Shown here in pieces: positions 13,051-36,640 of a stretch of DNA of 64,000 nt. The notes beneath the pieces were generated by a model. The model searched no databases, was not told the origin of the DNA, and saw nothing but the letters and a program-made list of their open reading frames with translations. Source of the DNA: Dyella acidisoli (GTDB taxonomy: Bacteria > Pseudomonadota > Gammaproteobacteria > Xanthomonadales > Rhodanobacteraceae); NCBI RefSeq assembly GCF_030160295.1, contig NZ_BSOB01000017.1, positions 1-64,000 of the forward strand, in the 5' to 3' direction. Position numbers and translations under genes: made by a program. Within the stretch, counting starts at the first letter, position 1. Every line of letters begins with the position of its first letter.

Positions 13051-13131
13051 CCGTCATTCCCGCGAAAGCGGGAATCCATTTGCTCTGGAGTCCAAAGCGA
13101 AGATGGATTCCCGCTTTCGCGGGAATGACGG
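13051..13131. repeat. Paired inverted REP-like element inside the nitrate operon
   Basis: A 29-base arm at 13051-13079, starting CCGTCATTCCCGCGAAAGCG, is perfectly complementary to 13103-13131. Each arm contains its own small hairpin (CCCGC-GAAA-GCGGG). It separates the flavoprotein gene from nasA, the only substantial gap in the operon. Near-identical pairs are at 16884-16989 and 21298-21379. Confidence 0.92.
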
Positions 13132-16883: not shown

Positions 16884-16989
16884 CCGTCATTCCCGCGAAA
16901 GCGGAGGCGCTTTACAACAGCGAAGCTGGTCAATCCACTTTGCTCTGATGCATCCGTAAAAATGGATTCCCGCTTTCGCGGGAATGACG
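16884..16989. repeat. REP-like inverted pair, left arm partly degraded
   Basis: CCGTCATTCCCGCGAAAGCG at 16884-16903 faces ATGGATTCCCGCTTTCGCGG ending in GAATGACG at 16989. The spacer includes TTTGCTCTGATGCAT, also present in the spacer of the element at 21298. The interior of the left arm has diverged, unlike the copies at 13051 and 21298. It separates cysG from hemD. Confidence 0.85.
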
Positions 16990-17010: not shown

Positions 17011-18399
17011 TCATGGTGTCCCACCAAACCATGCATGTTCGTGCGCCAGCGCCGCCACCTCCCCGACGATCAACAATGCTGGCGGATGAATCGCATGTTC
17101 CTTGGCAAGCACAGGCAATTCCTGCAAGACACCGCGCACCATCCGCTGTTGTGGCAGCGTGCCATTTTCGATGATGACGAACGGCGTATCCGGCCGCCGA
17201 CCGTGCTCCAGCAAGCGTTGTGTGAATTCATCCAACCTGGCCACACCCATATAGACGGCCAAAGTCTGATGATCCTGCGCTAGCGCTGGCCAATCCATCG
17301 CATCGAGCGATTCTTTGCCGTGGCCGGTGAGTAAATGTACGGAACGTGCGTGCTCGCGATGCGTCAGCGGAACGCCCGCATAAGCCGCGCACGCCACGGC
17401 GGCGGTGATGCCGGGCACGATTTCGCAGGGAATACTGTGCTGGTGCAGAAATTCCATCTCTTCGCCACCGCGCCCGAACACGAACGGATCGCCGCCTTTC
17501 AGCCGTACTACAAGGCGGCCTGCCTGCGCCTGTTCGAGCAGCAGCTGATGAATCTGTTCCTGCTGCGTATGACGCCCACCGCATCGCTTGCCCACGTCGA
17601 TACGCTCGGCATCGCGGCGTGCCAGCGCGAGCACAGGTTCGCTAACGAGCGAGTCGTGCAGGATCACGTCGGCCCGGTTGAGTGCACGCAACGCATTCAG
17701 CGTGAGCAAGCCAGGATCGCCAGGGCCAGCACCGACCAGCAGCACCGAACCTTTGCGCGACACAGGCTCTTTCGCATCCAACGCATCCAGCAAAGTCCGC
17801 TCGGCGTCATCGGGACGTGCGTTGCGCAACTGGTTCATCACTGGTCCGTCGTGCAGCCAGTCGTAGAAGGCGCGGCGTTCGGCCATATCCGGCCATCGCT
17901 GTGTGATGCATGTGCGGTATCGCTGCGCGAGCGCGGTGAGCGGACCTAATGCGTGATCGAGTTCGGTTTCCAGTGTTTCGCGCACACGACGGGCAATCAC
18001 GGGTGCTGCACCGCCGGTGGAAACCGCTACCGTCAATGGCGTGCGGTCCACCATCGCTGGGACTTGGAAACGGGATAGGGCGGGAGCGTCCACTACGTTC
18101 GCCAAAATGCGGCGATCTTCCGCGTTCGCGGCGACGCGGGCGTTCAGTTCGTGATCGTCGGTGGCGGCGATGACCAGCCATACGTCATCCAGCCATGCGG
18201 ATTGGAACGCACCGGCGAGATGTTCGATTTTGCCTTGTTCAACCTGTTGCATCAGGGCGGGCGTGAGCGACGGCGCACCCACGCGCACCTTTGCGCCGGC
18301 CGAGAGCAGTGCGGCCGTCTTGCGCTCGGCGACGTGGCCGCCACCCACGACGAGTACCGGCAGCCCGGTCAGATCGGCGAACAGTGGATAGAGCCCCAT
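17011..18399 (-). CDS. cysG: Siroheme synthase (trifunctional CysG)
   Basis: 462 residues from the ATG at 18399; a GTG at 18420 would add seven but lacks a ribosome binding site. Residues 1 to about 205 form the precorrin-2 dehydrogenase/ferrochelatase: [20 protein letters not shown] (about 13-32) binds NAD. The C-terminal uroporphyrinogen-III methyltransferase has [15 protein letters not shown] (about 217-231), [18 protein letters not shown] (about 297-314) and [20 protein letters not shown] (about 325-344). It converts uroporphyrinogen III into siroheme, the cofactor of NirB and sulfite reductase. Length is that of full CysG. Confidence 0.96.
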
Positions 18400-18540
18400 G
18401 ATGCGGTTTTCTCGGTGCACAAACGTGTGCGTCTAGATTAATGCGGAAGCACGCGTGTGCCTTGCGACGATGCGGAATAAAGCGGCTTGCATTGGCGGTG
18501 GACGAAACTCATCTGTTCTTCTTCAAGGGTGGTTTTTGCC

Positions 18541-18576
18541 TCACCGTCATTCCGGCCTTCGCCGGAATGACGGTGA
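18541..18576. repeat. Perfect hairpin repeat, GTCATTCCGGC variant
   Basis: TCACCGTCATTCCGGC and its exact reverse complement form a 16-base-pair stem closed by CTTC. It is a variant of the GTCATTCCCGC family, placed between cysG and the RidA gene. The tetraloop and perfect stem suggest recent spread or selection on the RNA hairpin. Confidence 0.85.
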
Positions 18577-18602
18577 GGGAGTATGGGAATCTTGGCAAGC
18601 AC

Positions 18603-18641
18603 CGCCCCTCACCCCAACCCTCTCCCCGAAGGGGAGAGGGA
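18603..18641. repeat. CCCTCACCCCAACCC-type repeat, possible terminator
   Basis: This copy carries CCCTCTCCCC-GAA-GGGGAGAGGG, a 10-base-pair stem, directly after the stop of the RidA gene on the minus strand. It could end the amine-oxidase operon transcript. Same family as 15891-16011. Confidence 0.75.
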
Positions 18642-18650
18642 GTAGAGCCT

Positions 18651-19148
18651 TTACGGCCGTACCGCAATCACCTCGATCTCCACCCGAAACCCGGGATTCG
18701 CCAGTCCAGCCACCTGAAACGCCGAACGCGCCGGCAGCTTGGGCTGCTCTTTCGTACCGAAGAACTGCGTGTACCCAGCCATGAAGCCGGCGAAATCCAT
18801 ATGTCCGCCGTGCGCTTCGTCACCCACCAGGAACACCTGCATTTTCACCACATCGCCCATGTCCATGTGCATGCTCTGCAATTGCTTCTGGATCGAGGTG
18901 AGCACACCGATGGCCTGGGTCTTGGTGTCGCCGTAGGCAGCGACGGAATCCTTCGGCGCCTTCGCATCGACCACCGGCGGCACCATGCCGCTTAGGAAGA
19001 CGAGGGATTTGCCCGCCGGTATTTCCACCGCGGCGGAGATAGGGAAGTTGCTGTTGGGCAGCTTGTAGCGGGTGACATCCTGTGCGTGGGCAAACGTGGG
19101 TGCAGCAAGCAACAGGGCCAGGGCAGCGACGAACTTTGACTTCTGCAT
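18651..19148 (-). CDS. RidA/YjgF-family imine deaminase with a signal peptide
   Basis: 165 residues from the ATG at 19148 (GGAG about 10 bases upstream). The first 23 residues, MQKSKFVAALALLLAAPTF then AHAQ, form a Sec signal peptide. The rest is a RidA domain: the key arginine sits in PARSAF (R141), matching the PARSC motif of RidA, and VEIEVIAV (156-163) supplies the acidic residue. RidA proteins hydrolyse reactive imines and enamines to ketones and ammonia. It is the last gene of a three-gene unit behind a flavin amine oxidase and a cytochrome c, so it probably handles the imine made by that enzyme outside the cytoplasm. Confidence 0.88.
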   Translation of the reverse strand: MQKSKFVAALALLLAAPTFAHAQDVTRYKLPNSNFPISAAVEIPAGKSLVFLSGMVPPVVDAKAPKDSVAAYGDTKTQAIGVLTSIQKQLQSMHMDMGDVVKMQVFLVGDEAHGGHMDFAGFMAGYTQFFGTKEQPKLPARSAFQVAGLANPGFRVEIEVIAVRP

Positions 19149-19164
19149 AGTGGGTTTTCTCCGG

Positions 19165-19599
19165 TCAGGGATGCATGCCGGCAACCTCTTGGGCGGTGAT
19201 GCGGTCCGCATAGTGGTTACCGAAGTGGGTGCGCACGTAGTTGACCACATCCGCGATCTGCGCGTCGCTGAGCTTGGAGTTTTCCAGCGGTCCGGCGTCA
19301 CCGGTCTGGATGAAGGAAGGCATGTCGCGCCGGCCATGCAGGATCACGGCCGCCATGTATTGCGCCGAAACCAGGCGCGGATTGCCGGCGAGTGCGGGAT
19401 AGGTGCCGGCTCCGGTTGCGCCTTTGGCATCAGGCATATGGCAGCCCTGGCAGATATGTTGGAACACCGCCTTGCCATCGGCGAAGCCGAGCGCCGATTG
19501 CGCGTGCGTAGCGTTGTCGGAAGACTGGGCATGCAATGCGCCAGTGTGCGAAAGCAGGCCAAGCCATAGGCATGTCGTCAGGAGATGCTTGCGTTTCAT
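19165..19599 (-). CDS. Exported c-type cytochrome (class I)
   Basis: 144 residues. The ATG at 19599 overlaps the stop of the amine oxidase gene (ATGA), so the two are translationally coupled. A Sec signal peptide (about residues 1-25, ending ALHAQ) leads to a single heme c domain with C50-x2-C53-H54 (CQGCH) and M93 in RRDMPSF as a likely sixth ligand. SDAQIADVVNYVRTHFG near residues 112-128 is the usual C-terminal helix. In this position the likely role is to accept electrons from the flavoenzyme and pass them to the respiratory chain. Confidence 0.92.
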   Translation of the reverse strand: MKRKHLLTTCLWLGLLSHTGALHAQSSDNATHAQSALGFADGKAVFQHICQGCHMPDAKGATGAGTYPALAGNPRLVSAQYMAAVILHGRRDMPSFIQTGDAGPLENSKLSDAQIADVVNYVRTHFGNHYADRITAQEVAGMHP

Positions 19600-21203
19600 G
19601 CACGGGCCTCCGCAACGGCGCGCTGATGGATACGCTCGATCACGTCCAGCGCGGATGTCACGGCGCCTTCCTGCCATGCAGGCAGATAGGAGGCATGTTC
19701 GCCGGCCAGCGCGATGCGCCCGTCGATCTGACAGAGGTTGTCGTAGTGTTTCGCGCGTGCTTCTTCCGACCACAGGCCAAAGCAGCCCATGGTGAAGGGC
19801 GAGCGATGCCAGCCCACCGCAACGCCGGTTTCGAATTCCCGGGCGTATTGCGGATGGATCTGGCTGCCGTATTCCAGTGCTTTTTGCACACGCTGCTCTG
19901 GCGTCATCGCGGTGAACTCGAACGCATGCAGCCCCCAGATGTAGGCGCCGAGCAGCACGCCCTTGCCGCTGCTGTGAAAGCCGGTGCTCGGGTAGCCGAT
20001 GGTGGCGATCGGCAGGTCCGTATAGGTGATGCCGCCGTAGATGTGCTCGTCTTCCTCCCAGAAGCGGCGCTTGAATTGCAGGCCAACTTTCACCGATGCG
20101 GCATAGGGCACGGCGCTGATCGCTTCGGTCATCGCCGCGCTGACATTCATGGGAATCTGGCTGAGCACCGACAGCGGAATCGTGCAGATGCACCAATCGC
20201 CGTGCACCTTTTGGGTGCTGCCGGGCTTGTCGGCGTCTTCGTAACTGACGGTGACGCCATGCTCGTCCTGCTGGATCGCGGTGACCTTGGCGCCATAGCG
20301 GATCACACCATCCAGTGCGCGACCGAAAGCTTCGCCGATGCGCCCCATGCCACCCACTGGCTGGAACAGGCTGGTCTGGAATTCGTAGATTTCGCTGGCG
20401 CTGAGATTGCTCCACAAGCGTGAGCCGAGCAGTTCGTCGAGCGCGACGGGCTTGGAAGGAATGGGGCGAGCGGAAAGGCCACCGCCGGGGTCTTTATCGA
20501 AGCCGCGCCGATTACTGCTGGCAATACCGCTGCTGTATGCAAGGTTCTTGTCGAGCGCACCCCAATCGCGCAGGGATTCGAGCAGCATTTCCTGGTCTTG
20601 CTTGTTCACTGCGTCATCGAGCTTGCCCTGCTGCGTGCTCTTGGCGAGCAGCTCGGCGACGTGGCCACGGTAGTCGGCATTGATCGCGCGGTAACGCTGC
20701 GGTTTGCCGCCGAAGGCGTTGGCGCTGTGCACGTAGGCGTTGTGGTTGACCTGTACAAACGGTTCAAGCGGCACGCCGAGCTTCTTGCAATAACTCAGGA
20801 TGCCGTGGTGGTGATAAGGCAAACGCCACGGGCCAGGATTGAGATAGAACCCTTCATCGAACTGGCAGTGTTGCGAGAAGCCACCCAATTCGGTGAAACG
20901 ATCACCACCGCGCAGCGACCAGTTGCGTCCGCCGGGACGATGGTTGTACTCGAGCACCTGCACCTTGTAGCCGGCCTGGCGCAATTCATAAGCCGCCACC
21001 ATGCCGGCTATGCCGGCACCCAGAATCAGTACCGAGGTGTTTTTCGGTGCGCCTTGCAGTTTCGGTTGGCCTTTGAAGGTGGATTCCGCCGCGAAGCCAA
21101 GGCTGCTCATCGCCTGGTACATCACGGCTGCACCTCCGCTCATGCCGATCATGCGCAGCAGGTCGCGGCGTTTCATGGAGAACGTACAGTTGTCGTCTTG
21201 CAT
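19596..21203 (-). CDS. Tat-exported flavin amine oxidase/dehydrogenase
   Basis: 535 residues from the ATG at 21203, with GAGG 8 bases upstream. KRRDLLRMIGMSGG (11-24) followed by a hydrophobic stretch is a twin-arginine signal. VLILGAGIAGMVAAYELRQAG (58-78, in two pieces GAGIAG and the helix) and RPGGR bind FAD; the C-terminal GRIALAGEHASYLPAWQEGA is the second FAD-binding block of the monoamine-oxidase family. It should oxidise an amine to an imine. NicA2, the nicotine-oxidising relative in Pseudomonas putida, donates electrons to a cytochrome c and not to oxygen; the coupled cytochrome gene suggests the same here. The substrate is unknown. Confidence 0.9.
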   Translation of the reverse strand: MQDDNCTFSMKRRDLLRMIGMSGGAAVMYQAMSSLGFAAESTFKGQPKLQGAPKNTSVLILGAGIAGMVAAYELRQAGYKVQVLEYNHRPGGRNWSLRGGDRFTELGGFSQHCQFDEGFYLNPGPWRLPYHHHGILSYCKKLGVPLEPFVQVNHNAYVHSANAFGGKPQRYRAINADYRGHVAELLAKSTQQGKLDDAVNKQDQEMLLESLRDWGALDKNLAYSSGIASSNRRGFDKDPGGGLSARPIPSKPVALDELLGSRLWSNLSASEIYEFQTSLFQPVGGMGRIGEAFGRALDGVIRYGAKVTAIQQDEHGVTVSYEDADKPGSTQKVHGDWCICTIPLSVLSQIPMNVSAAMTEAISAVPYAASVKVGLQFKRRFWEEDEHIYGGITYTDLPIATIGYPSTGFHSSGKGVLLGAYIWGLHAFEFTAMTPEQRVQKALEYGSQIHPQYAREFETGVAVGWHRSPFTMGCFGLWSEEARAKHYDNLCQIDGRIALAGEHASYLPAWQEGAVTSALDVIERIHQRAVAEARA

Positions 21204-21297
21204 CGGATACCTCGCGAGCCGGCGGCGACTCACTCTTCTTGCTGAGAAGAAACCGATGAGAGGTTGAACTTGCGAGGGGCTCTATACAACCTTGAGG

Positions 21298-21379
21298 CCG
21301 TCATTCCCGCGGAAGCGGGAATCCAATTTGCTCTGATGCAAAAAGCGAAGATGGATTCCCGCTTCCGCGGGAATGACGG
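21298..21379. repeat. REP-like inverted pair
   Basis: CCGTCATTCCCGCGGAAGCG starts the left arm and its reverse complement ends at 21379, with a spacer containing TTTGCTCTGATGCA. The loop base differs from the copy at 13051 (GGAA in place of GAAA), and the change is matched in the opposite arm, a compensated substitution. It lies between the TonB receptor and the amine oxidase gene. Confidence 0.9.
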
Positions 21380-21416
21380 CTTCAAGGGGTACAAATTTCT
21401 TCCGCAAGCCGTGACT

Positions 21417-21470
21417 CCTCACCCCAGCCCTCTCCCCCGTGATTGATCAAAGATTGGGGGAGAGGGAGCT
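21417..21470. repeat. Split copy of the CCCTCACCCC repeat next to the TonB receptor stop
   Basis: CCCTCTCCCCC and GGGGGAGAGGG form an 11-base stem around a 17-base AT-rich loop. It follows the receptor stop codon (21476) on the minus strand and may act as its terminator, which would make the amine oxidase operon a separate transcript or reduce read-through. Confidence 0.7.
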
Positions 21471-21475
21471 AGAAG

Positions 21476-23902
21476 CTAGAACCGGTACGTCACCTTCCCG
21501 TACCAATACCTTCCGTTGAAGCCGAACGGCGACAACGACGAGTACTGCAGGCCATCCGCACGGTCTTCATACACGTTGTTGAGCGAGGCCTTGGTCGGAT
21601 ATTGGTTGGTGATGTTGTCGGCGCCCACGGAGAACGTCCACGCTTGCCAGTTGTAGCTGGCCGACAGATCGAAGATCCATCGCGCGGAGAAGATCTGATC
21701 CTCATCGCCGTTGGCGTCGTCGCCCAGGCGCGTCACCGTGCCGTAGCGCGTGGCGTTGGCATGGAAGTCAAAACCATGGAGCAGCCAGTCGCCGGCTAGC
21801 ACGAATTTGGTGCGTGGTGCGGCGTCCGTCAGCAAGCCCTGGCTGGCGCGGCCAAACGCAGGCGTGGAGACGTGCAGGATCGTCGTCTGGTTGTAGTTAG
21901 CGCTGCCGGTGAGGTTGAGCGCGCCCCAGCTCTCCAGATCCAGGTGATAGCTGGTGATGAGATCCGCACCGCGTGTGCGTGTGGTAGCACCATTGACGAA
22001 GAACTGCGCGCCGGTCACCTGATCGCCCGGAATACTCACCGGAATCTGATCGGAATACAGGATCTGGTCCCAGATGCGGATCTGGTAGATATCCACTGTC
22101 GCATTGAAGTTGCTGGTCGGCTGCCACACGCCACCGAGGCTGTAGTTCACGGATTTTTCTGGAACCAGCGGCTTTGCACCCAAGGCGATGGCGGTGGGAT
22201 TGGACGTGCGATAGGTGCCGATCTGTGCAAGCGAGCCGTTCTGGATCAGCGTCACCACCGATTCGTAGTTCTGCTGGGCGAGCGAAGGTGCGCGAAAACC
22301 GTTTGATACCGTGCCGCGCAGGGCGAAGGTGGGCGTTAGCTGGTAGCGCGTGGAAATCTTGCCCGAGCGCGTGGAACCGGCATCGCTGTAATCCTCATAG
22401 CGCGCGGCAACACCGGCCGACCATTTGTCGGTGAGGTCGGTTTCCACATCGACATAAGCGGCCTTGCTGTAGCGAGTGAAATCACCCGCTACTTCCGGCG
22501 TCAGGCCCGGATACACCTGCGAGCCGCCGGCATATGGGCTGGTGGTGCCGGGAATGAGCGTGTTCGGATCGAAGAAATAGGAATCCGCATCACCCGCACC
22601 GATGTCATAACTTTCATTGCGGTATTCCGCGCCGAACGCGACGGTAACCGGGTTCGGCAGGAAGCCCCAGCTGAATTCCTTGCTCAGGTCTACGTTCAAC
22701 ACACCTTCTTTATTGGCGAACGTGCCGGCGTGGAAGTAAGTGGGCGAATAGCCCTTGGTGTAATACAGGTTGGTGTTGACGCTGTCCTGGATGTCGAACA
22801 CCAGGTTGTTCTCGCCGTAATCAGCCGAAACATCCCAGTGCCAGCCGCCCGCCGTTTTGCCCTTCACGCCGAACACGAAGGCCGTATCGTTGGTGTGGTT
22901 GACGATCTGCGGAAGAAAGCCGTTCGGGTAGATTTCCGGCACGTTGCGTGCAGAGTTGTAGGCGCGGTAATAACCGTTGGAGGTGACATCGCGCTTGCTG
23001 CCGTTGAGATAGCCGTACAACTGGATGTTCGGCGTGATGTCGTAGGCGAAGTTGAGTAGCAGCTGATAGGTTTTTTCGGCCGGATCGCCGTAGCGTTCGT
23101 AGGGATAGCCGGTGGTGTTGGTTGCGCCTGCGATGGTGGTGCCGCGGTCCGTATTTTCGGAGCGGTTGGTGTTCATCTGGTTCTGGTAATTCCACGCGAC
23201 GCGCATCCAGCCAGGTGCGCTGCCGTTGGCGCCACCCAGTGGAATGCCTACCGAACCCTGCACACCGTTGTTCGCGCCATCGCCCACGTCCATGATGCCG
23301 GCATTGGCGGTGATGTCGTTCCCGCCTGCCTGGCTGCCGTGTTTCAGCACGATGTTGATCACGCCCGCGATAGCGTCGGAGCCGTACTGCGCGGCTGCGC
23401 CATCGCGCAACACTTCGATATGATCGATCGCGGAGATCGGAATGGAATTCAGATCCACCGGCGCCGAACCGCGGCCCACCGAAGAGTTGTAATTGACCAG
23501 CGCGGATGTGTGATAGCGCTTGCCATCCACCAGCACCAGCACATCGTCGGGCGAGAGGCCGCGCAGTGAGGCGGGTCGAAGCGCATCGTTGCCATCGTTG
23601 ATGGCGGGGCGGGGGAAATCCAGCGAAGGCAATACGGTGTTGAGGGCGCTGGCGAGATCGGTATAGCCGCTGGAGGTGAGATCGGCGGGCGAGATGATAT
23701 CGATCGGAGAGAGCGATTCGTCAGCGGTGCGATTCGAAGCGCGTGTACCGGTGACGACTACTTGTTGGAGCTGTTTGGCGTTCTGGGGACTCGATGAGTC
23801 GGCGGGAGGATCATCGGCCCAGGCGGCGGTGGTGAATACGATTCCTACGGAAAACAATGACAGCATGGCGGCTGCCAACGGACGTCGAGCAAGTCGTTTC
23901 AT
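21476..23902 (-). CDS. TonB-dependent receptor
   Basis: 808 residues from the ATG at 23902. A signal peptide (MKRLARRPLAAAMLSLFSVG, to about residue 29) is followed by a TonB box-like QQVVVTGTR (about 45-53). The plug domain includes LRGLSPDDVLVLVDGKRYH and IEVLRDGAAAQYGSDAIAGV. The barrel ends in the canonical terminal phenylalanine (KVTYRF). It lacks an STN signalling domain, so it is a transporter only. The ligand cannot be read from sequence. It is transcribed in the same direction as the amine oxidase operon below it, which makes uptake of that operon's substrate one possibility. Confidence 0.9.
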   Translation of the reverse strand: MKRLARRPLAAAMLSLFSVGIVFTTAAWADDPPADSSSPQNAKQLQQVVVTGTRASNRTADESLSPIDIISPADLTSSGYTDLASALNTVLPSLDFPRPAINDGNDALRPASLRGLSPDDVLVLVDGKRYHTSALVNYNSSVGRGSAPVDLNSIPISAIDHIEVLRDGAAAQYGSDAIAGVINIVLKHGSQAGGNDITANAGIMDVGDGANNGVQGSVGIPLGGANGSAPGWMRVAWNYQNQMNTNRSENTDRGTTIAGATNTTGYPYERYGDPAEKTYQLLLNFAYDITPNIQLYGYLNGSKRDVTSNGYYRAYNSARNVPEIYPNGFLPQIVNHTNDTAFVFGVKGKTAGGWHWDVSADYGENNLVFDIQDSVNTNLYYTKGYSPTYFHAGTFANKEGVLNVDLSKEFSWGFLPNPVTVAFGAEYRNESYDIGAGDADSYFFDPNTLIPGTTSPYAGGSQVYPGLTPEVAGDFTRYSKAAYVDVETDLTDKWSAGVAARYEDYSDAGSTRSGKISTRYQLTPTFALRGTVSNGFRAPSLAQQNYESVVTLIQNGSLAQIGTYRTSNPTAIALGAKPLVPEKSVNYSLGGVWQPTSNFNATVDIYQIRIWDQILYSDQIPVSIPGDQVTGAQFFVNGATTRTRGADLITSYHLDLESWGALNLTGSANYNQTTILHVSTPAFGRASQGLLTDAAPRTKFVLAGDWLLHGFDFHANATRYGTVTRLGDDANGDEDQIFSARWIFDLSASYNWQAWTFSVGADNITNQYPTKASLNNVYEDRADGLQYSSLSPFGFNGRYWYGKVTYRF

Positions 23903-24090
23903 TTGAATTCCCCACGAAGATTTAAAGCAAAAGGTGTCCCTCCAAGGACTTGGATGTATGCAAAATCTCTGTTTATGCGCCGCAGCATTGATTTCCCCGA
24001 GCTGCGGCAATTTGAGGCTATGACACGTTGTGCAACGCGTCAATAGATCGACATCTCATTGAGATGAATTTGACACAGTTTTTTATTTTC

Positions 24091-24237: not shown

Positions 24238-25635
24238 TTAGCAGTGAGACGCCAGTTGTCCCAATTGACGCAAGGCGTGATCGAGCTTGTCGTTCCAGGG
24301 CAGTCCGCAGCTCAACCGCAAGCAATCACCATAATCGCCCCGGCTGGAAAACAGCATGCCTGGCGAGGTGCCGATGCCTTCGCGCAGTGCTAATTCAAAT
24401 AATCGTTGCGTATTCACGCCGGGCAATTGCAGCCATAGTGAAAGCCCGCCTTGCGGCGTACATGCGCGCGTTGATTTGGGCCAATTGTGTGCAATCGCCT
24501 GGTGCATGCGCTGCGCGTTGTCGGCGAGGGCACGGCATAGCTGGCGCAGATGACGCTGCAGATCGTGACGTTGCAGGTAGTCGGCCAGCGCAAGCTGCGG
24601 CAGGCTGGCACTGCCGACGGTGGAAAAATATTTGGTTCGCAACAGCGCCTCGGTCCAGTCGCCGCCCACCATCCAGCCCACGCGCAAGCCGGGTGCGAGG
24701 ATCTTCGAAAACGAACCGCAGGTGATCACGCTGCCGTGTTTGTCCCAGCGCCGCAGCGGCGACGGTCGTTGTCCTGACCAGGCCAGTTCGCCGTAGATAT
24801 CATCTTCGATAACGACGGTTTTATGTCGCGCGCAGCTCTTCAACAGGGCTTGCTTGGCGGCATCGTCGGTCAAGCTGCCGAGTGGATTATTGAAGTTGGG
24901 CACCAGTACGGCTGCGCGTACTTTGTTCTGCTGCAACAACTGCTCCAGCCGTGCCACATCAATGCCTCGATCTGGCAGGTTCGGCACCTCCAGCACTTTC
25001 AGTTTCAACGCCGCCACCGCTTGCAGAATGCCGTGATAGGTCGGTGCTTCCACCAGCACTACGTCGCCGGGTTGGGTGAGCGTACGCAAGGCGATGCTGA
25101 TCGCTTCCATCGCACCAGCGGTGATGACGATCTCGTCTGGTGAAACCGTTACGCCTACTTGCGCATAGCGTTGCGCGATCTGCCGACGCAACGCGAGATG
25201 ACCTTGCGGCGGTGCGTAATCCAGCGCTGCCGTGGGCGCATGGCGCAGGCAACGCGACAACGACGCAGTAAGCGCTGCTTGTGGCAACAACGCAGGCGAC
25301 GGCGTGGCGCTGTGCAATGGCAACAGATCGCTGCGCGCAAGCATGTCCAGCACGTCTTGCAGCATCGGGTTGCTGACGTTACCGGGCGTGCGCCGGCGCG
25401 ACGGGCGTGCTTCAGGTGGAAGCGGGGCAGCGGCACGTACGAAATAGCCGGAACGCGGTCGCGCCTGCGCCAAGCCTTCGCGCTCGAGTTGCAGGCAGGC
25501 TTGTACTGCCGTGGCGATACTTACGTCGTGGCTGCGCGCAAGTTGACGGATGGAGGGTAGGCGCTCGCCGGCACGCAGCGCGCCTTGGGTGATCTGAGTG
25601 CGTAGCTGGGTGGCTAGTTGTTCGTAGAGCAGCAT
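24238..25635 (-). CDS. MocR-type GntR regulator with PLP aminotransferase-fold domain
   Basis: 465 residues from the ATG at 25635; a TTG at 25647 would add four but runs into the repeat used below as an operator. The N-terminal winged helix (about residues 1-70) has LPSIRQLARSHDVSIATAVQ. The C-terminal half is a type I aminotransferase fold, with the PLP lysine probably in CGSFSKILAPGLRVGW (about 302-317). MocR proteins sense PLP or amino compounds and usually control a divergent gene, here the EamA exporter. Full length, no visible damage. Confidence 0.93.
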   Translation of the reverse strand: MLLYEQLATQLRTQITQGALRAGERLPSIRQLARSHDVSIATAVQACLQLEREGLAQARPRSGYFVRAAAPLPPEARPSRRRTPGNVSNPMLQDVLDMLARSDLLPLHSATPSPALLPQAALTASLSRCLRHAPTAALDYAPPQGHLALRRQIAQRYAQVGVTVSPDEIVITAGAMEAISIALRTLTQPGDVVLVEAPTYHGILQAVAALKLKVLEVPNLPDRGIDVARLEQLLQQNKVRAAVLVPNFNNPLGSLTDDAAKQALLKSCARHKTVVIEDDIYGELAWSGQRPSPLRRWDKHGSVITCGSFSKILAPGLRVGWMVGGDWTEALLRTKYFSTVGSASLPQLALADYLQRHDLQRHLRQLCRALADNAQRMHQAIAHNWPKSTRACTPQGGLSLWLQLPGVNTQRLFELALREGIGTSPGMLFSSRGDYGDCLRLSCGLPWNDKLDHALRQLGQLASHC

Positions 25636-25647
25636 GAGTGGTTTCAA

Positions 25648-36612: not shown

Positions 36613-36640
36613 CGTCATTCCCGCGAAAGCGGGAATGACG
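36613..36640. repeat. Single hairpin of the GTCATTCCCGC repeat family
   Basis: CGTCATTCCCGC-GAAA-GCGGGAATGACG is a perfect 12-base-pair stem with a GAAA tetraloop, between cyoD and the SURF1 gene. It is the half-unit of the paired elements at 13051 and 21298. Confidence 0.92.

Follow-up and report, generated by a model that had tools for sequence, protein, structure and literature searches.

A flavoenzyme of the L-amino acid oxidase branch with a predicted Tat signal, encoded with a cytochrome c and a Rid3-type protein in Dyella acidisoli

Which substrate is oxidised, and where are the electrons passed, by a flavoenzyme that carries a twin-arginine translocation (Tat) signal and is encoded directly before a secreted-type cytochrome c and a Rid-family protein? 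This question is raised by a three-gene unit, here called lao-cyc-rid, of Dyella acidisoli (assembly GCF_030160295.1). It lies in positions 1 to 64,000 of contig NZ_BSOB01000017.1, the stretch of 64,000 nucleotides that was analysed and is referred to as the window. A preliminary description of the same DNA read the unit as a NicA2-type amine oxidase with its electron acceptor and a dedicated, exported RidA, feeding the respiratory chain next to a bo3 quinol oxidase operon. From sequence and fold comparisons and from gene linkage, the unit is quite probably a periplasmic L-amino acid:cytochrome c oxidoreductase, assisted by a protein that hydrolyses imines. The features are listed in Table 1. 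Survey loci, contigs and genomes are numbered with the letters L, C and G.

Table 1. Features of the lao-cyc-rid region, in positions of the window
Feature	Positions	Strand	Basis
lao, flavoenzyme with predicted Tat signal, 526 aa	19596-21176	-	Pfam PF01593 and PDB 2jae matches
Predicted twin-arginine signal region of lao, MKRRDLLRMIG to about residue 30	21087-21176	-	Sequence motif
cyc, single-haem cytochrome c with predicted Sec signal, 144 aa	19165-19599	-	PF00034 3.1e-12
rid, Rid3-type imine deaminase homologue with predicted Sec signal, 165 aa	18651-19148	-	PF01042 2.9e-17
TonB-dependent receptor	21476-24043 (longest open reading frame)	-	PF00593 2e-36, PF07715 4.2e-20
MocR-type regulator (GntR + aminotransferase)	24238-25647
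Sirohaem synthase CysG	17011-18420
REP-like palindromes	21290-21387, 18539-18578, 13053-13129, 16963-16988, 36614-36639

Placement of the flavoenzyme

By sequence and fold, lao is a member of the L-amino acid oxidase (LAAO) branch of the flavoprotein amine oxidoreductases. The Pfam domain Amino_oxidase was matched at 1.5e-58 over profile positions 1-438 of 443, that is, as a full-length domain. Among the NCBIfam matches listed for lao (25 of 82), cyc and rid, none was above the cut-off. The top solved-structure match was the LAAO of Rhodococcus opacus (2jae; 325 bits, 7e-96), followed by vertebrate-type LAAOs. Monoamine oxidases came next at about 50 bits or less, and bacterial chains whose only label is 'Amine oxidase' likewise stayed at or under 50 bits. 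A profile of 30 lao relatives returned the solved structures in the same order, with 2jae at 395 bits. The AlphaFold2 model of lao has a mean predicted local distance difference test (pLDDT) score of 89, with values below 50 at residues 13-18 and 27-30. Foldseek superposed it on 2jae with template modelling scores of 0.86 (TMq) and 0.95 (TMt), a root-mean-square deviation of 1.9 and 36-37% identity; the second-ranked matches were snake-venom LAAOs at a TMq of about 0.65.

Four residues of lao, Arg118, Lys363, Tyr395 and Trp501, are identical in 83 of 83 related rows and are retained in two remote rows (L118 and L120). Arg118 aligns with an Arg of 2jae and of 9rum (tetrapod LAAO ancestor), a residue which we take to bind the substrate carboxylate in LAAO structures. 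A search limited to open-licence PMC papers returned no paper on the active-site residues of the R. opacus enzyme. Judged by the branch placement and the invariant Arg118, the substrate would most likely be an L-amino acid rather than a simple amine.

The NicA2-type assignment of the preliminary description was dropped, since 2jae is far ahead in both the sequence and the fold comparisons. A NicA2-like amine or alkaloid dehydrogenase module would show the same signposts, a Tat enzyme and an adjoining cytochrome c gene with a general secretory (Sec) signal (PMC12224317). It is nevertheless highly improbable in view of the bit scores given above and the invariant Arg at the LAAO carboxylate site; the solved-structure matches listed for lao also include no nicotine-enzyme label, a comparison made without a direct NicA2 alignment.

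Linkage, predicted export and the loose Rid3 gene

The three open reading frames described before were all found, tightly packed on the minus strand, and the 4-base overlap of cyc and lao is borne out by the ends at 19596 and 19599. The adjacency of rid also stands, with a gap of 16 bases (19149-19164) instead of the 17 given earlier. The ATG at 21203, formerly taken as the oxidase end, is in frame and lies 9 codons 5' of the start at 21176. The latter is preferred because the Arg pair falls within the first 12 residues in 57 of 79 relatives' called starts; the start picker used on the relatives prefers hydrophobic starts, and some other starts are misplaced. In 18300-21500 nothing beyond chance was detected by a promoter scan (0 promoter-like matches) or a terminator scan (1 terminator-like match, 2.8 expected).

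Conservation was followed in two samples. For the locus set, six peptide patterns of the window protein gave 139 confirmed matches, of which the best 80 were kept, so that it leans to close relatives. At all 80 loci cyc lies directly after lao; rid follows cyc at 53 and is found about 3.2 kb upstream at two more (L036, L063). The adjacency of lao and cyc is far above chance level. The second sample, 97 genomes of the window's family (lao at 59% identity or more, cyc at E 1e-15 or better), contains 30 lao copies, spread over 26 genomes. Every copy has cyc immediately after it, and none of the 30 cyc matches lies away from lao. Beside these 30 pairs rid is present at 20 and missing at 10. At the thresholds used, no cyc and no rid accompanies the four remote lao-like matches (36-39%) in the 97 genomes. 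The unit is an accessory trait, patchy in the family, of which lao-cyc is the fixed part. Of the preliminary description, an exported three-gene unit is supported: enzyme and cytochrome are co-conserved without exception in both samples, and the co-occurrence of all three families holds for rid only in part.

At L118 and L120, remote LAAO-like genes adjoin a linked rid, and these may be variants of the trio. Two weak cytochrome c-like stretches lie between the LAAO-like gene and rid of L118; at L120 none was detected.

All 80 relatives show a twin-arginine motif in the frame of the oxidase. For the other two proteins a home-made signal-peptide rule was used (a hydrophobic 11-mer, K/R ahead of it, and an A-x-A-like site). 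The pattern was found in 54 of 55 rid proteins of the loci and in 64 of 78 cyc proteins (2 of the 80 cyc had no called start); in 12 of the 14 remaining cyc, the chosen start leaves no K/R ahead of the stretch. The rid of the window has a Sec-like leader that ends in AHA. The Tat and Sec signals reported earlier are upheld by these counts, and lao, cyc and rid would all be exported to the periplasm. An exported RidA had been regarded as an oddity. An exported-looking Rid is, on the contrary, the norm at lao loci, and Chlamydomonas offers a precedent in a periplasmic LAAO with a RidA partner (PMC5053998, PMC10805672). Another Rid-family protein with a Sec-like leader is encoded in the same genome (C10:511335-511676, L092); by eye it lacks the PARS-type Arg, and it may not be an imine deaminase.

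The cytochrome has one CxxCH and a Pfam Cytochrom_C domain; the CxxCH residues, Met93 and Pro94 are each conserved in at least 95% of 79 rows. The Pfam domain of rid is Ribonuc_L-PSP. Among solved structures rid scores highest with PSPTO3006 (142 bits) and PFL1385 (123 bits; PDB 9bka, 9bkc), with TdcF and RidA-type chains far behind at about 30 bits or less. PSPTO_3006 and PFL_1385 are called Rid3, and in vitro they hydrolysed imines from snake venom LAAO and from DauA (PMC5619798). Rid3 is marked by a retained Arg and the replacement of Tyr by Ile (PMC4433059); in rid the Arg (Arg141) is present in 55 of 55 rows with a letter and the Ile (Ile37) in 56 of 56. By these residues and its nearest structures rid is assigned to the Rid3 subfamily, with predicted imine deaminase activity. 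A hydrophobic N-terminal stretch is visible in PFL1385 when aligned with rid, which means that in vitro work on an exported-looking Rid3 already exists.

The 26 rid genes of the family survey comprise 20 at lao-cyc and 6 away from any lao. Somewhere in the genome, rid is present in 23 of the 26 genomes with lao-cyc and in 3 of the 71 without; the co-occurrence p value of 5e-16 ignores relatedness, and the counts carry the argument instead. A search of 20 genomes with rid-less loci (of 27 such loci) gave strong rid matches, at E 1e-36 or better, in 10, weak ones only in 4 and none in 6; in G014 and G018 the search may have hit the rid that lies upstream at L036 and L063. D. acidisoli itself has a second lao-cyc pair (C17:408691-410693, L002), with a lao 75% identical and no rid. 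The earlier view of a RidA dedicated to one oxidase does not agree with this second pair, with the 10 family pairs that lack rid, or with the 6 rid genes found away from lao. At L014, a locus related to L002, genes for an S15 peptidase (X-Pro dipeptidyl-peptidase type) and a GNAT acetyltransferase are located upstream.

Three of the orphan rid genes stand in the order mocR-rid-cysG: the place equivalent to that of the window lacks the TonB receptor, lao and cyc but still has rid, in L114 about 37 bases after mocR. The genomes concerned, those of D. nitratireducens (L114, also L014), D. choica (L116, also L019) and G112 (L126), keep a rid-less lao-cyc copy elsewhere. In L125 rid adjoins hemD and cysG in a different arrangement; at L115 and L122-L124 no mocR, hemD or cysG neighbours were found, except for a remote mocR-like match (27%) in L123. 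Read most simply, these genomes would have lost the receptor-lao-cyc block and kept a rid that could serve the other copy in trans; alternatively, the block may have been inserted. A quick tree was made of 85 rows: the window, 79 of the 80 loci (without L065) and five extra copies (L002, L117-L120; for L117 the second of two reading frames was used, which is in frame with its match and holds the expected motif). On this tree, linked rid was gained or lost repeatedly, with 14 changes, at least 10 of them forced by starred branches, against a shuffled mean of 23.7.

Could rid then be a mere neighbour, with an independent role outside the pathway of the enzyme? Its absence downstream at 27 of the 80 loci and 10 of the 30 family copies would fit, as would the 3 of 97 genomes that have rid and lack this lao, and the 10 strong, 4 weak and 6 empty results above. 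We consider this decidedly unlikely, as rid is concentrated in the lao-carrying genomes, its key Arg is invariant, and its predicted leader would target the compartment of lao.

Proposed electron route and mechanism

The bo3 quinol oxidase operon mentioned in the preliminary description is real. Its COX1 is CyoB (1114 bits, curated cut-off 1020) and its subunit II has a COX_ARM domain; the enzyme therefore oxidises quinol and is not a direct acceptor for cytochrome c. It was rejected as the direct acceptor of cyc, and a link of the unit to it, as hinted in the preliminary description, is not supported. The genome has four COX1 genes, including the CyoB of the window and a second CyoB on C50. 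A CtaD on C6 adjoins a CuA-bearing CoxB, both above their curated cut-offs, and a COX1 on C1, below the cut-off, adjoins a CuA motif. The C6 and C1 enzymes are plausible electron sinks for the cytochrome.

In the proposed mechanism, lao would be folded with FAD and leave through the Tat system, as its motif suggests. It would take a hydride from the alpha carbon of an L-amino acid, with Arg118 presumably holding the carboxylate. The strict linkage suggests that the reduced flavin would pass its electrons to the adjacent soluble cytochrome c and not to O2, and the cytochrome may hand them to a CuA-type oxidase such as CtaD/CoxB. The 2-imino acid would be converted to 2-oxo acid and ammonium by the exported Rid3, an activity projected from Rid3 biochemistry. 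This step would be helpful but dispensable, because about one third of the lao-cyc pairs have no adjoining rid. The 2-oxo acids formed (indole-3-pyruvate in the case of tryptophan) could serve as a carbon or nitrogen source or, as in Gluconacetobacter diazotrophicus, as auxin precursors.

The choice of the cytochrome over O2 draws on work on flavin amine oxidases (FAOs). A published survey that started from NicA2 identified clades in which many Tat FAOs encoded beside a cytochrome c are dehydrogenases. Among the enzymes tested there, such a neighbouring gene was the better guide to dehydrogenase function; in clade 1, the reaction of the enzymes with their own cytochromes in solution was poor (PMC12224317). 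Taken with the published LAAO work and the strict lao-cyc pairing, this suggests that the LAAO branch of lao is most likely cytochrome c-dependent, and lao probably a cytochrome-linked dehydrogenase rather than the O2-using oxidase of its family name. A true O2-using periplasmic LAAO, making hydrogen peroxide for nutrition or antagonism with the cytochrome as a general carrier or peroxide-handling partner, would agree with the annotation of the nearest solved structures as oxidases and with the conserved Lys363. We regard it as unlikely, though by no means far-fetched: a specific cytochrome c stands beside every lao copy of the branch in both samples, and such pairs are mostly dehydrogenases in the tested FAO clades, with the reservation on clade 1 just given.

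A related cluster, lao-cccA-ridA (GDI2456-2454) of G. diazotrophicus, was published in 2016 with a Tat signal on the LAAO, linked expression, and conservation in Caulobacter and Xanthomonas. Insertion in lao abolished indole-3-acetic acid (IAA), cytochrome c maturation mutants made 5% IAA (quoted there from Lee et al. 2004), and cytochrome c and RidA were put forward as untested helpers of the LAAO (PMC5053998). The unit of the window might likewise be a dedicated tryptophan-to-auxin module, giving indole-3-pyruvate and IAA for plant interaction. The G. diazotrophicus work speaks for this, and so do plant-associated genera such as Xanthomonas and Mesorhizobium among the carriers. However, the carriers also include genera of other habitats, such as Marinobacter, Halomonas and Pelistega. 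The R. opacus LAAO is moreover quoted as broad in substrate range (PMC5053998), and auxin formation would be one use of the same chemistry and not a different mechanism. A module restricted to auxin is therefore an improbable, if respectable, alternative.

Several points weigh against a cytochrome-linked L-amino acid dehydrogenase with a Rid3 helper. The R. opacus LAAO is an O2-using oxidase. The conserved Lys363 of lao is the Lys linked to O2 reactivity, although NicA2 and Pnao also have it (PMC12224317). In G. diazotrophicus the lao mutants also have lowered cccA and ridA transcripts (PMC5053998), and therefore do not separate the roles of the three genes. That system belongs to another organism and is likened here by its published description. 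Three genomes (G058, G086 and G095) have lao-cyc and no rid match at E 1e-20 or better.

The cytochrome-linked reading is retained as the preferred one, and a wider claim can be attached to it. The LAAO branch would constitute an unrecognised, widespread group of proteobacterial cytochrome c-using dehydrogenases that respire periplasmic L-amino acids without hydrogen peroxide, with a detachable, trans-acting exported Rid3 and, in some gammaproteobacteria, a TonB-dependent supply; for this the balance tips only slightly in favour. If lao is such a dehydrogenase, many bacterial 'L-amino acid oxidase' genes are misnamed, energy would be conserved from periplasmic amino acids instead of hydrogen peroxide being released, and the need for cytochrome c maturation in auxin formation from tryptophan in Gluconacetobacter would be explained. 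The loose rid provides natural pairs, with and without it, for probing the use of periplasmic imine hydrolysis.

The TonB-dependent receptor gene lies 299 bases upstream of lao on the same strand; its likelier start is the ATG of MKRLARRP near 23902. A receptor is located upstream of lao at a minimum of 10 of the 80 loci: L007-L010 (79-81% identical), L020, L030 (about 1 kb away), L036, L063 (33-40%) and, by Pfam, the Xanthomonas loci L027 and L029. The TonB profile search missed the latter two receptors, which are plain in Pfam, so that the count is a lower bound and silence at other loci is weak evidence. In the family survey the receptor is also present at L128 (68%), L135 is very probably the same region as L020, and L127 and L129-L134 gave no match to the receptor of the window. 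The NCBIfam matches of the receptor (haem, siderophore, B12) are all far below cut-off. The receptor is a possible outer-membrane partner of the unit and might, speculatively, carry the substrate or another need of the pathway across the outer membrane.

The block receptor-lao-cyc-rid is flanked by genes for a MocR-type regulator and for CysG. The regulator could control the unit, but it also adjoins the orphan rid. Palindromes resembling repetitive extragenic palindromic (REP) elements occur on both sides of the unit. Within the window, the GTCATTCCCGCG-type motif was matched 6 times when up to 3 mismatches were allowed; 100 shuffles gave no match.

Comparison with known systems

The R. opacus LAAO shares with lao the fold, the identity level and the aligned Arg given above; it is regarded as an oxidase and is not known to have a cytochrome partner. 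The FAO dehydrogenases that use cytochrome c, NicA2/Pnao-CycN among them, resemble the unit in combining a Tat flavoenzyme with an adjoining Sec cytochrome c gene (PMC9396064, PMC12224317). This genetic mark is found here by motif and simple rule, whereas NicA2 and Pnao belong to a different branch of the superfamily from lao. The main text of PMC12224317 does not contain the terms 'L-amino acid', 'amino acid oxidase', 'LAAO', 'RidA' or 'imine'.

The Rid3 proteins PSPTO_3006 and PFL_1385, the nearest solved structures to rid, share with it the Ile for Tyr and the conserved Arg; their assays used snake venom LAAO and DauA instead of a cytochrome-linked LAAO (PMC5619798). Clustering of Rid3 with FAD amine oxidase genes was noted in 2015, in a paper whose main text does not contain 'signal peptide', 'cytochrome' or 'periplasm' (PMC4433059). 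Chlamydomonas LAO1/LAO2 (RIDA) is, like the unit described here, a periplasmic LAAO with a RidA partner, but LAO1 is eukaryotic and is described as making hydrogen peroxide, with no cytochrome partner mentioned in the part of the source drawn upon (PMC10805672).

The closest counterpart is lao-cccA-ridA of G. diazotrophicus, with the same three genes in the same order and on one strand, a Tat LAAO being encoded with a cytochrome c and a RidA. Its role there is the formation of IAA from tryptophan. Xanthomonas is named as a carrier (PMC5053998), and the Xanthomonas loci L027 and L029 carry the unit in our set. The gene cluster as such is thus already known. What is added to it here is the strict pairing of lao with cyc, the loose association of rid, the synteny of the orphan rid genes and the linkage to a TonB-dependent receptor.

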